A stretch of DNA of 64,000 nt from Thermotogaceae bacterium (GTDB lineage: Bacteria; Thermotogota; Thermotogae; B21-G9; HyVt-16), in assembly GCA_029981435.1 (NCBI GenBank), contig JARRBB010000005.1, positions 1 to 64,000 on the forward strand, given 5' to 3'. Position 1 is the first letter of the stretch. The number at the start of each line of letters is the position of its first letter. The notes beneath the pieces were generated by a model. It ran no database searches. It was not told the DNA's origin and worked only from the letters and a program-made list of their open reading frames with translations. Positions 41,932 through 63,232 of the stretch are shown here, one piece after another. A program made the position numbers and the translations under genes.

Positions 41932-41968
41932 AAGGAGGTGAACCTGGTCATTTTGGCCGGGGTTGTTC
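41932..41968 (+). promoter_or_regulatory. GC-rich hairpin between ribosome binding site and start codon of rpoA
   Basis: AAGGAGGTGA (41932-41941) matches the anti-Shine-Dalgarno over ten bases, but the ATG lies 30 bases downstream. Between them CCTGGTC (41943-41949) pairs with GGCCGGG (41955-41961), seven pairs including two G-U, around the loop ATTTT. With the hairpin closed, GGAGG is 11 bases from ATG (4 before the stem, 7 after). This is the same arithmetic as at rplE. Confidence 0.7.
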
Positions 41969-42997
41969 ATGATAGAATATGTAATGCCGAAGAAATTGAT
42001 AGTCGAGGAAGAGAGAGAAGACGGTGAGTTTTATTATGCACGTTTTTCTCTTTCGCCTCTTGAGAAAGGTTATTCAATAACTTTAGGAAATGCTTTGAGA
42101 AGAGTTTTATTATCTTCCATACCTTCTCTGGCAATAACAAAAGTCAAAATACTTGACAAGTATCATGAATACGATACTATAGAGGGAGTAAAGGAAGATA
42201 TAGTTGAAATATTATTGAATCTGAAAAAGGTACAGTTGAGAGTCACAACTTCTGAAATTGATAAAATCAATCGTCTTGTTGTTGAAAAAAGAGGTCCTGG
42301 CGATTTGCTTGCAGGTGATATCAAATGTCCTATTGGTATTGAGGTGGCCAACCCTGAACTTAAAATAGCCACACTCAATGAAGATGCAAATGTTTACATG
42401 GAATTATTTGCAGAATTAGGGAAAGGTTATGTCCCTGTTGCAGAGCGCGAAGAGGAAACTGATATACAAATCATACCGATAGACGGTATTTTCAGTCCCG
42501 TTATGAAAGTGAATTTTCTGACCGAAAACGTTAGGGTTGGTAAAAGGACAGATTATGATAAACTCATTTTGGAAGTCTGGACTAAAAAGTCTGTAAAACC
42601 TTCTGAAGCTTTGAAAAGAGCATGTAACATACTCATAGAGCATTTCAATGTGATAGAAAGAAGTTTAGGAAACGTTCTAGAATTTGGAAAAGAACAGTTC
42701 GTAGAGGTTGACAAGACTAATTATGGATTTGAAGAAGAAATTGAAGAAATCGAAGATTACGAGGAAGAACTTGATGAAAAAATAGACGAAGAGATATTCT
42801 TAAAACCAATAGAAGAGTTAGAACTGTCTGTAAGATCTCTGAATTGTTTGAAAAGAGATAAAATAGAAACAATTGGAGACCTTTTAAACAGAACAGAAGA
42901 CGAACTTTTGAGGATACGGAATTTTGGTAAGAAATCGCTGGATGAAGTTAAGGAAAAACTTCAAGAAAAGTTCGGATTAACTCTTAGAGAGAAATAA
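41969..42997 (+). CDS. rpoA: RNA polymerase alpha subunit
   Basis: 342 residues. The N-terminal dimerisation domain includes [22 protein letters not shown] very acidic linker ([21 protein letters not shown]) leads to the C-terminal DNA-binding domain with [20 protein letters not shown] and [15 protein letters not shown]. The ATG at 41969 is used, giving [10 protein letters not shown]; the in-frame TTG at 41963 would overlap no better binding site, and the ATG at 41984 lacks one. Confidence 0.96.
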
Positions 42998-49991: not shown

Positions 49992-50017
49992 AATTTAAAA
50001 GATTAGGGATGATAGAT

Positions 50018-50800
50018 ATGCCACCAGAACTCGCAAATTTTCTCGAAACGAAATTTTTGGTTTGGTTGTTGATAATATCAAGAATATCCGGTTTGTTCAT
50101 ACTAATGCCGTTTTTTAGCGGTGATTTTATTCCTAACAATTTGAAAATAATGATAATTCTGTTTATCTCATGGCTCGTACTACCAGTCGCTCCAACTGTT
50201 TTACCTCTTGACACCAATCTTTTTATGGTAGTTGTTATGAGTCTTATAAATTTTATAATAGGTTTTTTGATCGGTGCGATTGTTTTCGTGCTTTTTTCAA
50301 GTATCCAATTTCTCGGTGAAGTTTTCGGGCTTCAGCTTGGATTTGCAGTAGCGACACTCTTCGATCCACAGATTTCCGAGGAAACTAACATAATTGGTCA
50401 ACTACTTTACATGTTAGGTATTTATGTTTTCGTTGCAATAAAAGGTCCTCATCTGATTCTTGGCACCATAATAGGAAGTTTTCAAACGATACCCGTAAAT
50501 TTTTTCAGATTGAACAACATGGTATTCTATGACATAGTAAAATTAGGTGGAAGAATTTTCAGAATAGGTATGGAATTAGGAATACCCTTAATAGCTTTTA
50601 TGATAATCGTAACGTTCATAATAGGAATACTCTCTCGTTTGATGCCTCAAATGAATCTCTTTATGGTTGGATTACCTCTGAAGGTTCTGGTTGGTATTTT
50701 AATGTTGCTTGGTTTGTTACCGGTAATAGCAGAGGTTGTTTCAGGACTTTCAACAGAAATCATAAAGGAGGTTGAAAAGGTATTAAAGAATTTAGGATAA
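50018..50800 (+). CDS. fliR: Flagellar export protein FliR
   Basis: 260-residue export-gate subunit with about six transmembrane helices. RISGLFILMPFFSG, GEVFGLQLGFAVATLFDPQ and a C-terminal SRLMPQMNLFMVGLPLKVLVG block identify it. The ATG at 50018 has TTAGGG 9 bases upstream; the ATG at 50009 is too near. Its 3' end overlaps the reading frame of flhB in the -1 frame. Confidence 0.95.
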   Translation: MPPELANFLETKFLVWLLIISRISGLFILMPFFSGDFIPNNLKIMIILFISWLVLPVAPTVLPLDTNLFMVVVMSLINFIIGFLIGAIVFVLFSSIQFLGEVFGLQLGFAVATLFDPQISEETNIIGQLLYMLGIYVFVAIKGPHLILGTIIGSFQTIPVNFFRLNNMVFYDIVKLGGRIFRIGMELGIPLIAFMIIVTFIIGILSRLMPQMNLFMVGLPLKVLVGILMLLGLLPVIAEVVSGLSTEIIKEVEKVLKNLG

Positions 50801-51867
50801 GGATTGAACTTGATATCTTCCAGGATCCAGATAGAACAGAAAGAGCGACTCCAAGGCGAAGGCAAAGAGCGCGTGAAGAGGGTAGAGTAGCTCAATCAAG
50901 AGATTTGAGCATGGCATTAACCTTTCTTGCTATGATCGGATCACTGAGTTTTTTAATCAGGAGTGTTTACAACTTTCTTCTTGAAAATGTCAACTTCTTT
51001 TTTTCCTTTCCAGAACTTGACGAATCAACATTCATGTTTTATATGAAAGAATCACTGCTTAGAGCCTTATATAGTATTGGATTACTCTTTGCAGTTGGAG
51101 TGGCGGTTTCTTTAATGAGTGTATTCTTGCAGACGAGATTTTTGATAGCTCCAAAAGCTTTGAAGATAGATTTCAAAAGATTAAATCCTGTTGAAGGCTT
51201 CAAGAGACTGTTTTCTCTCAGATCTTTGATGGAGTTTTTAAAAAATATTCTCAAAATAGCTTTCATAGGTATTATAGCCTTCATCTTTCTCAAATCAGAA
51301 TGGAGTAATTTCTTTGTGATGCCTTTTTTGCCTCTTGAAGAATCAAGTAGCAGAATGTTTTACGATATATTTCAGATAGCCATCAGGTGTGGAATAGCAC
51401 TTTTAGCCATTGGAATCTTCGATTACTTTTATCAGAAATGGGAATTTGAAAGAAGTATAAGGATGACCAAACAAGAAATAAAAGAAGAGTACAAAGAAAC
51501 AGAAGGAAATCCTGAAATAAAGAGAAGACAAAGACAACTCATGGCAGAAATTATCCGAAGACGCATGCTTCAAGAAGTACCGGAGGCCACTGTCGTTATA
51601 ACCAACCCTGAGCATATAGCTGTTGCCTTAAAATATGATATTGATAAAATGGAAGCACCTGTAGTCGTTGCAAAAGGTGCAGGTGAAATCGCAGAAAAAA
51701 TAAAAGAAATAGCTCGTGAAAATGGTGTTCCAATTATAGAGAACCCTCCTCTCGCAAGGGCTATATACAGATTGAGCGAGGTCGGTGATGAGATACCTGT
51801 GGAACTGTACAGAGCAGTTGCTGAAGTTATAGCACAGGTTTATAGAATGAAAAGGGTAGAGGTGTAA
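50782..51867 (+). CDS. flhB: Flagellar export switch protein FlhB; non-standard start
   Basis: Controls export specificity. The conserved N-terminal segment, RTERATPRRRQRAREEG then VAQSRDLSMALTFL, is coded from about 50833, but there is no ATG, GTG or TTG in frame between the TGA at 50773-50775 and the TTG at 50905. The ATT at 50782 lies 10 bases after AAAGGAGG (50764-50771) and gives 361 residues, the usual size; ATA at 50797 or a -1 frameshift from fliR are alternatives. Four membrane helices and the cytoplasmic domain follow. The autocleavage motif is NPEH instead of NPTH. The exact start is uncertain. Confidence 0.8.
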   Translation: MKEFRIRIELDIFQDPDRTERATPRRRQRAREEGRVAQSRDLSMALTFLAMIGSLSFLIRSVYNFLLENVNFFFSFPELDESTFMFYMKESLLRALYSIGLLFAVGVAVSLMSVFLQTRFLIAPKALKIDFKRLNPVEGFKRLFSLRSLMEFLKNILKIAFIGIIAFIFLKSEWSNFFVMPFLPLEESSSRMFYDIFQIAIRCGIALLAIGIFDYFYQKWEFERSIRMTKQEIKEEYKETEGNPEIKRRQRQLMAEIIRRRMLQEVPEATVVITNPEHIAVALKYDIDKMEAPVVVAKGAGEIAEKIKEIARENGVPIIENPPLARAIYRLSEVGDEIPVELYRAVAEVIAQVYRMKRVEV

Positions 51868-51869
51868 TT

Positions 51870-53960
51870 ATGCCGAGGAAGTATTTCGATATTGTGATTT
51901 CTTTACTGATAGTTGCAATAATACTCTTAATGATATTACCAATACCAACCGCTATGCTGGATTTTTTACAACTTTTAAATATAAGTATATCCATAATAAT
52001 CATTCTATCAACAATGTACGTGCGAAATGCACTCGAACTATCCTCTTTTCCAACCATATTGCTTGTTATGACACTTTTCAGATTGGCACTCAATGTCACC
52101 TCTACAAGGCTGATACTCCTGCAGGGAAGAAATTTCAGTGGCAGAGTAATAACAACCTTTGGGAATTTCGTTGTTAGGGGTGATTACATTGTAGGATTAA
52201 TAATATTTCTGATATTGGTTATAATACAATTTATTGTCATAACCAGAGGAGCAGAGAGAATAGCGGAAGTTGCCGCAAGATTTACGCTGGATGCAATGCC
52301 TGGAAAGCAGATGAGCGTCGATGCTGATTACAACGCTGGATTAATAACAGAAGAAGAGGCTCGGAGAAGACGGGCTGATATAAGAAGAGAAGCGGACTTT
52401 TATGGAGCTATGGACGGTGCAAGTAAATTCGTAAGGGGAGACGCAATAGCAAGTATAATAATCGTCTTTGTAAATATTCTCGGCGGCCTAATAATAGGAA
52501 GCATAAGACAGGGACTGAGTATACAGGAAGCGGCTCAGATATACACACTTCTAACCGTTGGTGATGGTCTGGTCACACAGATACCTGCACTGTTAATTTC
52601 CACAGCAACCGGTATTATCGTTTCAAGAGCGGCCTCAGAAAACGATCTTGGAACATCCATGATAAAAGAGCTGGGCAGAGAGACGAAAGTGTTGATGTTA
52701 ACAGGTGCTGTTCTGGTTTTTCTTTCCCTTTTTACGCCATTACCAACTTTTCTAACCCTACTGATAGGTATATTCTTAATAGTTGTATCTTACATGAGTT
52801 CAAGGGCTGTTCCAAAACCCGAACCAGCAGTACCTGGATTCCCTGGAACACCCGGTGCGGCTCCAGAGTCAGGAAAACCTGCAGGTGCCCCTCCATCAAG
52901 TGGTGCGCCACCAATGACAACACCTGAAGAAGTATCGGAAATAATACAATCCGATACTTTAGAAGTTGAAATCGGATATGGTCTGATACCACTTGCCGAT
53001 CCTTCACAGGGTGGGGATCTTTTAGAAAGAATAACCATGGTCAGAAAACAGATTGCGTTTGAATACGGCCTGGTGCTTTCACCGATAAGAGTCAGAGACA
53101 GTATCCTTTTGAAACCAAACGAATACGTGATAAAATTAAAAGGCGCAGAAATAGCAAGATATGAGCTAATTCCTAACAGACTACTGGCAATGAATCCCGG
53201 CACAGCAAGAAAAGAATTACCCGGGATAAAAACTAAAGAGCCTGCTTTTGGACTGGATGCAATATGGATAGAAGAAGGACTTAGAGACGAAGCTCTGAAA
53301 AGTGGTTACACGGTAGTTGATCCACCGACAGTTTTCGCTACACATTTGTCTGAAATAATAATTAGAAATGCTCATGAAATACTTGGAAGAAGAGAAATGG
53401 AATTGCTACTCGATGGTCTGAAAGAGAAATTCCCGAGACTTGTCGATGATCTCATTCCTAACATACTGAAAACACATGAAGTAAGAAAAGTATTGCAAAA
53501 CCTACTGAAAGAGAGAGTTTCCATAAGAAATCTTCCACTTATTTTTGAAACACTTATAGAATATGGAGAAAAATCGTCTGATATAGTTTATCTAACCGAA
53601 CAGGTCAGAAGAGCACTGAAACGTCAGATAACTTCAATGGTAAAATCAGAAGACGGTATTGTTCACGCAATTGGAATTGATCCATCACTTGAAAGAGAAC
53701 TCACCAATTCTATCAGAGGTGAAGAAGAGAGATACATATCGATAAATCCTGAAATAATGAAACAGTTAATCGAGAAAATCTCACAGGCTCTTGAGGAACA
53801 GATGCGAAAAGGTTATGTGCCGGTTATAATCTGTTCGGGATCGTTGAGACCCTATCTTAGAAAACTACTTGAAAGATACATTCCACTTGTAACTGTGGTA
53901 TCTTATGAGGAAATAAGTGAGGATGTTCAATTGAGAGTAGATTCTCTTATAAATATATAA
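51870..53960 (+). CDS. flhA: Flagellar export-gate protein FlhA
   Basis: 696 residues: eight membrane helices up to about residue 310, including the FHIPEP segment LDAMPGKQMSVDADYNAGLI, then the cytoplasmic domain that forms the nonameric ring (LEVEIGYGLIPLADPSQGGDL onwards). The linker at about residues 313-353 is unusually rich in proline, glycine and alanine (VPGFPGTPGAAPESGKPAGA). ATG after AGAGGTG, two bases from the flhB stop. Confidence 0.96.
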   Translation: MPRKYFDIVISLLIVAIILLMILPIPTAMLDFLQLLNISISIIIILSTMYVRNALELSSFPTILLVMTLFRLALNVTSTRLILLQGRNFSGRVITTFGNFVVRGDYIVGLIIFLILVIIQFIVITRGAERIAEVAARFTLDAMPGKQMSVDADYNAGLITEEEARRRRADIRREADFYGAMDGASKFVRGDAIASIIIVFVNILGGLIIGSIRQGLSIQEAAQIYTLLTVGDGLVTQIPALLISTATGIIVSRAASENDLGTSMIKELGRETKVLMLTGAVLVFLSLFTPLPTFLTLLIGIFLIVVSYMSSRAVPKPEPAVPGFPGTPGAAPESGKPAGAPPSSGAPPMTTPEEVSEIIQSDTLEVEIGYGLIPLADPSQGGDLLERITMVRKQIAFEYGLVLSPIRVRDSILLKPNEYVIKLKGAEIARYELIPNRLLAMNPGTARKELPGIKTKEPAFGLDAIWIEEGLRDEALKSGYTVVDPPTVFATHLSEIIIRNAHEILGRREMELLLDGLKEKFPRLVDDLIPNILKTHEVRKVLQNLLKERVSIRNLPLIFETLIEYGEKSSDIVYLTEQVRRALKRQITSMVKSEDGIVHAIGIDPSLERELTNSIRGEEERYISINPEIMKQLIEKISQALEEQMRKGYVPVIICSGSLRPYLRKLLERYIPLVTVVSYEEISEDVQLRVDSLINI

Positions 53961-63000: not shown

Positions 63001-63232
63001 AATCATGGCGAGCAAATATGGTGTAAACCGAATATCTCTTGAAAATAGCACTTTGAAATTTGGTTTTGAAGAAGAAGAACAGGCTCGCAATGTGTATAAG
63101 ATCATAACAAACGGGACAGTTCTTGATGGAGAGTTGATAATTTACAATTTCCATTTCAAAGAACCTGTTAAAAAACTTCTGGAGATTTTGAGTAAGCTTC
63201 AAAAGGAGGTAATCGATTGTTCGATACAATAG
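60065..63232 (+). CDS. mfd: Transcription-repair coupling factor Mfd
   Basis: 1055-residue DNA translocase that removes stalled RNA polymerase and recruits UvrA. UvrB-like N-terminal module ([38 protein letters not shown]); RNA-polymerase-interacting domain ([20 protein letters not shown]); translocase with Walker [12 protein letters not shown] near residue 539, [23 protein letters not shown] and [16 protein letters not shown]-terminal TRCF domain. GTG start after GAGGGAAAAAAGCA. About 100 residues shorter than the E. coli protein. Overlaps mnmE by 16 bases. Confidence 0.95.

Follow-up and report, generated by a model that had tools for sequence, protein, structure and literature searches.

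In a draft genome of an uncultured Thermotogaceae bacterium, the essential flagellar export gene flhB carries no ATG, GTG, or TTG codon ahead of its conserved N-terminus, and it is most likely a non-AUG-initiated, translationally coupled gene that overlaps the end of the upstream gene fliR. The stretch of DNA analyzed, hereafter called the window, comprises 64,000 nucleotides and is part of contig C33 of a genome of 1.96 Mb in 97 contigs (93.7% complete, 1.25% contamination). The arrangement found there at the flhB start is real and rare. We consider it probable that the gene is initiated at AUU or AUA, taken together, and our leading, still tentative, reading is that flhB is translated separately from the AUU at 50782, within the last codons of fliR.

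The fliR product matched TIGR01400 with 201 bits (cut-off 168.6) as well as PF01311, and flhB is read in the fliR frame shifted by -1. From the TGA at 50773-50775 onward, the flhB frame reads KGIKEFRIRIELDIFQDPDRTERATPRRRQRAREEGRVAQSRDLSM, in the codons AAA GGT ATT(50782) AAA GAA TTT AGG ATA(50797) AGG ATT(50803) GAA CTT GAT ATC TTC CAG GAT CCA GAT AGA ACA(50836) GAA AGA GCG ACT CCA AGG. The initial annotation of this DNA had described the frame as open back to the TGA at 50773, with no ATG, GTG, or TTG until 50905, past the hallmark at about 50836, and our direct reading agreed: the first such codon is a TTG at 50905, which lies 3' of the hallmark. The list of open reading frames (ORFs) gave flhB only from this position, as a product of 320 aa with the conserved N-terminus dropped. 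Because gene finders seek only ATG, GTG, and TTG, flhB would be annotated without a functional N-terminus.

The frame upstream of 50905 is genuine coding sequence. When translated from 50776, it scored 416 bits against TIGR00328 (cut-off 349.25) over profile positions 2-346 of 348, with the N-terminal block included, and 424 bits against PF01312; both matches begin at residue 19 of this translation. The residues encoded from about 50791 on aligned with those of relatives without a gap, and much of the N-terminal block was invariant in this alignment. Because the frame is intact and the protein is full length and 61% identical to its nearest relative, translation of the FlhB N-terminus is hardly in doubt. 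The features of the locus are listed in Table 1.

Table 1. Features of the fliR-flhB region, in window coordinates
Feature	Position	Strand	Description and basis
fliR, flagellar export gate protein	50009..50800	+	263 aa, stop TAA at 50798-50800; ORF list, TIGR01400, PF01311
Shine-Dalgarno sequence TAAAGGAGGT	50763..50772	+	10-bp perfect Shine-Dalgarno complement within the fliR 3' end (codons I-K-E-V); stacking sum, window motif scan
TGA closing the flhB frame upstream	50773..50775	+	direct reading, ORF list
ATT, candidate flhB start preferred here	50782..50784	+	spacer of 10 nt from GGAGG; no other near-AUG codon of this frame falls at spacers 4-13
A_AAG tetramer (TTA AAG in the fliR frame)	50785..50788	+	of the two potential -1 slip sites, the one more favourably placed; frameshift disfavoured
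ATAA: overlap of ATA (flhB frame) with the fliR stop TAA	50797..50800	+	rival candidate flhB start, M-R-I-E-L-D...; matches the ATGA/CTGA/TTGA position in related genera
FlhB hallmark TERATPRRRQRAREEG (TERATP...)	50836..50883	+	direct reading, alignment
flhB as proposed	50782..51867	+	361 aa from ATT 50782, stop at 51865-51867; TIGR00328, PF01312, 61% identity to nearest relative
flhA, next gene	51870..53960	+	normal ATG, Shine-Dalgarno GAGGTG at spacer 7; named from sequence and gene order

The initial annotation had proposed comparing this junction with those of related genomes. We tabulated 76 fliR-flhB junctions from same-class genomes with a usable match, together with a second set of 79 junctions mapped in a named collection, which was mostly drawn from Firmicutes with some Thermotogota and others and which shares about a dozen Thermotogota with the class set; one locus of the survey, L067, was unmapped. 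Of the 76 class junctions, only that of the window genome offered no ATG, GTG, or TTG in the interval from the in-frame stop to the hallmark, and a standard flhB start was present in all 79 mapped junctions of the named collection. The class junctions shared one frame relation in 70 cases, flhB being read in the fliR frame -1, the relation given by an AUGA overlap. Such overlaps took the form ATGA in G001, G048, G080, and G006, GTGA in G012, G090, and G091, TTGA in G060, and CTGA in G058, G081, G082, and G017. At the same place, ATAA was found in the window and in G059, a one-contig genome that carries it at -39 and has a far ATG in addition. The CTGA genomes and G059 have kept an upstream standard start; the window has none because of the TGA at 50773. 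The junction resembles the known 4-nt overlap coupling of AUGA type, in that the fliR stop and the flhB frame meet as NTRR and relatives carry AUGA, GUGA, or UUGA, but the window reads AUAA rather than NUGA, so the overlap contains no standard start.

We next consider the sequence upstream of the AUU. The initial annotation had pointed to the sequence AAAGGAGG at 50764-50771, ten bases from the ATT at 50782, and these coordinates were confirmed. Pairing of the full Shine-Dalgarno (SD) match TAAAGGAGGT amounted to -18.5 kcal/mol as a stacking sum with the usual 16S tail assumed, from which the genome's own may differ. Within the 64-kb window, AAAGGAGGT occurred only here and at 63202, and TAAAGGAGGT is the longest SD match present. 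The shorter motif AAGGAGG occurred 13 times on the + strand, and in 11 of the 13 cases an ORF opened with ATG or TTG at a distance of 7-11 nt behind it; this was not so for the TAAAGGAGGT site and a site at 41932 before rpoA. No ATG, GTG, or TTG was found at spacers 4-13 from TAAAGGAGGT in any frame. Between 50776 and 50836, the in-frame codons differing from AUG in the third base were ATT at 50782, ATA at 50797, ATT at 50803, and ATC at 50815, the last inside the conserved block, and the first of these lies at a usable spacer of 10 nt from the strong SD. This spacer exceeds the mode of 7-9, which counts against the AUU; among the 55 SD-led starts in the window, it was 10 in four and longer than 10 in seven, that is, at least 10 in 11.

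To judge how readily such an SD arises within fliR, the last 25 fliR codons were recoded synonymously at random, and the trials reaching the observed SD strength were counted. The strength of the window site was reached in 2.8% of trials with the codon usage of the window or in 5.2% with that of fliR/flhB. In G001, the nearest relative compared and a member of the same order, GGAGGTGA lies at the same distance from the fliR stop (-27), and recoding reached its strength in 0.9-2.8% of trials. These percentages are supportive, not strong, because the window and G001 are related and the locus was chosen for its oddity. In G001, in-frame ATT codons lie at spacers 7 and 10 from the SD and an ATG at spacer 25; with this ATG available, G001 does not depend on a conserved AUU, which also weighs against the AUU reading. 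Further points against it are that the SD falls in the K-E-V codons of fliR and could be partly fortuitous (P 0.03-0.05 when taken alone, without correction for the choice of locus), and that an ATT start in E. coli is reported to give about 0.3% of the ATG level (Hecht 2017, as quoted in PMC10666635).

In the mechanism that we favour, a 30S subunit would be held by the 10-bp SD and would initiate with fMet at the AUU, giving M-K-E-F-R-I-R-I-E-L-D-I-F-Q-D-P-D-R-T-E-R-A-T-P..., with the weak codon compensated by the strong SD, as in infC. Little FlhB would be made, and its synthesis would be coupled to the translation of fliR, in keeping with a demand of about one copy for each export gate.

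The gene infC is the textbook example of an AUH start (AUU, AUC, or AUA), and its product, IF3, controls its expression. In the window's own genome (L161, 1470-1486), infC reads AAAAAGGGGTGGATAAA-ATC-AAG-GAA, where the only GTG overlaps the SD itself, and the gene probably starts at the ATC (1483) behind AAAAAGGGGTGG. Among the infC loci resolved by our script, those of G006, G013, G019, G022, and G028 had no standard start and carried AUC, AUA, or AUU behind GGAGG or AGGTGA. Because this pattern is found in the genome itself and in five relatives, ribosomes of this class probably start at AUH codons behind a good SD. In both infC and flhB, the frame lacks a standard start and an AUH codon stands behind a strong SD; however, infC is under IF3 autocontrol and has a spacer of 7-8, whereas flhB is an internal gene that overlaps its upstream neighbour and has a spacer of 10.

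Non-AUG starts are of a known kind. In S. aureus, the starts of infC (AUA), ccpN (AUA), and cvfC1 (AUU), all with extended SDs, were mapped by Ribo-Ret, and in reporters in poor medium non-AUG starts reached about 10% of the AUG level (PMC13009471). The ccpN and cvfC1 genes share with flhB a non-AUG AUH codon with an extended SD; their starts are proven by Ribo-Ret and reporters and are conserved among relatives (PMC13009471), whereas we infer that of flhB, and in G001 the AUU is not conserved as the sole candidate start. The literature searched contained no instance of a non-AUG start in flhB and no paper combining FlhB, a start codon, and AUA. Rare ATT or ATA initiation had been one of three options in the initial annotation, and it is the best supported of them, through the 10-bp SD, the in-frame ATT, and the parallel with infC.

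A competing candidate for the initiating codon is the AUA at 50797, at which a ribosome ending fliR at the UAA would restart on the overlapping codon by termination-reinitiation. We regard this as possible but doubtful. The overlap of this AUA with the fliR stop (AUAA), at the site where relatives have AUGA, CUGA, or UUGA, had been absent from the initial annotation. Relative to FlhB, the codon occupies the same place (-39/-38) as the ATGA of G048 and G080, the CTGA of G058, G081, and G082, and the TTGA of G060; aligned by FlhB, it coincides with the ATGA or CTGA of genus g25 (f3), and it has the same FliR position as the ATGA of G001. Its product, M-R-I-E-L-D-I-F, would equal M-R-L-D-L-Q-L-F of G048 in length, and ATAA also occurs at -39 in G059, although that genome has its far ATG. 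Because a single G-to-A change from AUGA to AUAA keeps the fliR stop (UGA to UAA) while losing the AUG, the AUA is likely the successor of an ancestral AUG. AUA starts exist (PMC13009471), and coupling at gene overlaps by termination-reinitiation is established (PMC6728339, PMC10666635); no example of reinitiation at AUA was found in the literature searched. The difficulty lies in recruitment: the 10-bp SD is 25 nt off, the nearest match is just AGGT at spacer 16, and a weak codon without an SD should yield very little protein. We tentatively favour the AUU over the AUA, and both may contribute.

A programmed -1 frameshift at A_AAG, aided by the SD and producing a FliR-FlhB fusion, had been another option in the initial annotation, and it is highly improbable. 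Natural fusions of this pair do exist in clostridia, as had been noted there (NF009411 family; PMC7064499), and they join the same two proteins that are adjacent in the window; here, however, fliR and flhB lie in different frames, and a -1 shift would be required. In E. coli, no tetramer is more slippery than A_AAG, and an SD 6-17 nt upstream can stimulate the shift (PMC4066793). The tetramer originally named, at 50776-50779, is present, but that at 50785-50788 is better placed, as TAAAGGAGGT falls within 6-17 nt of it. Slippery tetramers lacking strong downstream structure, however, are barely shifty above background (PMC4066793), and pseudoknot-free folding predicted no such structure (fold z +1.03 and -0.24). 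The slip site is also not conserved, being absent from G001, which would have no need of it, and scattered elsewhere, and the presence of a phased A_AAR is uninformative because it was found in 42 of 70 junctions. The topology is likewise unfavourable: in the solved gate, FliR ends on the periplasmic side and FlhB begins on the cytoplasmic side (PMC7064499). Against NF009411, the separate parts scored 121 + 358 = 479 bits, below the cut-off of 739, and no single protein exceeded that value. The main text of the GeneTack frame-transition paper makes no mention of FliR or FlhB.

A normal start, such as a true ATG at 50797-50799 giving AUGA, could be hidden by a one-base mistake in the sequence or assembly or by a variant of a minority strain; we judge this unlikely. 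One substitution would suffice, the source is a 97-contig draft with 1.25% contamination, and relatives carry AUGA, GUGA, or UUGA overlaps. However, a random hit on exactly one of the few usable bases is improbable a priori, and the strong SD at the AUU would go unexplained. An indel between fliR and flhB was considered and rejected: none is needed or indicated, the -1 frame relation is the same as in the relatives (70 of 76 class junctions), and the protein aligns gap-free from 50791. Of the sequence error suggested in the initial annotation, a substitution is thus possible and an indel unlikely. Least probable of the explanations is that functional FlhB is not made, either through early decay in which the start has just been lost or through a start at TTG 50905 that yields a truncated protein. 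This TTG is the only standard start, but it has no SD, and its use would delete the invariant TExTP...R..REEG...S..L block, which by our own count includes the residue aligned to Salmonella E11, a genetic partner of E230 (PMC7064499). The rest of flhB is intact, as are the neighbouring genes fliQ, fliR, flhA, and flhF, all with open, full-length frames.

If initiation at AUU or AUA is confirmed, a structural flagellar gene would join the short list of bacterial genes using these codons, and it would be clear that, given a strong SD, a start of this type can work even where it lies within the terminal part of a preceding gene. A broader reading, which we consider rather unlikely, is that several Thermotogota lineages deliberately run flhB from codons other than AUG located at the fliR stop or close to it, with AUU or AUA in the taxonomic order of the window genome, CUG in the four CUGA genomes, and AUA in G059; three of the four CUGA genomes belong to a genus whose other species have AUGA. 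Were this true, non-AUG starts would throttle FlhB relative to FliR via a start-codon-controlled, translationally coupled overlap.

Within genus g25, two species had the overlap ATGA and three had CTGA, and the protein sequences on either side were similar. The flanking protein is nearly identical between G080 (L163, ATGA) and G081 (L164, CTGA), which provides a natural test of a weak start; the other loci of this genus are L025 (G058), L165 (G082), and L026 (G048). With such pairs of sister species, which differ in AUGA or CUGA within a single genus, the junction survey offers a way to measure what a weak start costs.

In the eight groups examined, variability per codon position switched from fliR-type, with varying fliR third positions, to flhB-type at the fliR stop, and because of this switch the FlhB extension upstream of the stop appears weakly constrained. 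Many relatives had ATAG or ATAA at -33, and most of these had an ATG, TTG, or GTG at -66, -99, or -108 inside fliR; the ATG at -99/-108, the only start in some relatives, is created by the FliR I-W codons ATA TGG. A far SD was computed for f8 at -108, with a spacer of 9-10. An AUA overlap at -33 as a general flhB start in these relatives was rejected, since the stop stems from the conserved FlhB codons I-[DN] (ATA GAT/ATA AAT) and is preceded by a residue, often R/K, whose conservation also seems to follow the flhB frame. Genus g22 (L007, L009, L022, L141, L156, L160, and L162) is the exception to this weak constraint: variation from -60 to -33 before the FlhB hallmark was low at all codon positions, a pattern that suggests dual coding in the fliR-flhB overlap. 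In L143 (G100), and also in L056, the flhB frame was open for 771 nt upstream, spanning fliR from end to end in its -1 frame. Start positions predicted for FlhB in this class should be treated with caution.

Two further observations were made outside the junction. A separate short gene (L002, G000:C96:28588-28821) matched the FlhB C-terminal domain with 54% identity over 79 aa; genes of this type also occur in most relatives, and it is perhaps of the FlhB-like kind (TIGR00789). In the rpoA leader (41932-41972), the SD AAGGAGGT lies right behind the preceding gene (rpsD by position), and a GGTC-ATTTT-GGCC hairpin separates it from the conserved ATG (MIEYVMPKK) at about 41970, about 30 nt from the SD; looping of the SD or an unusual start is possible there.
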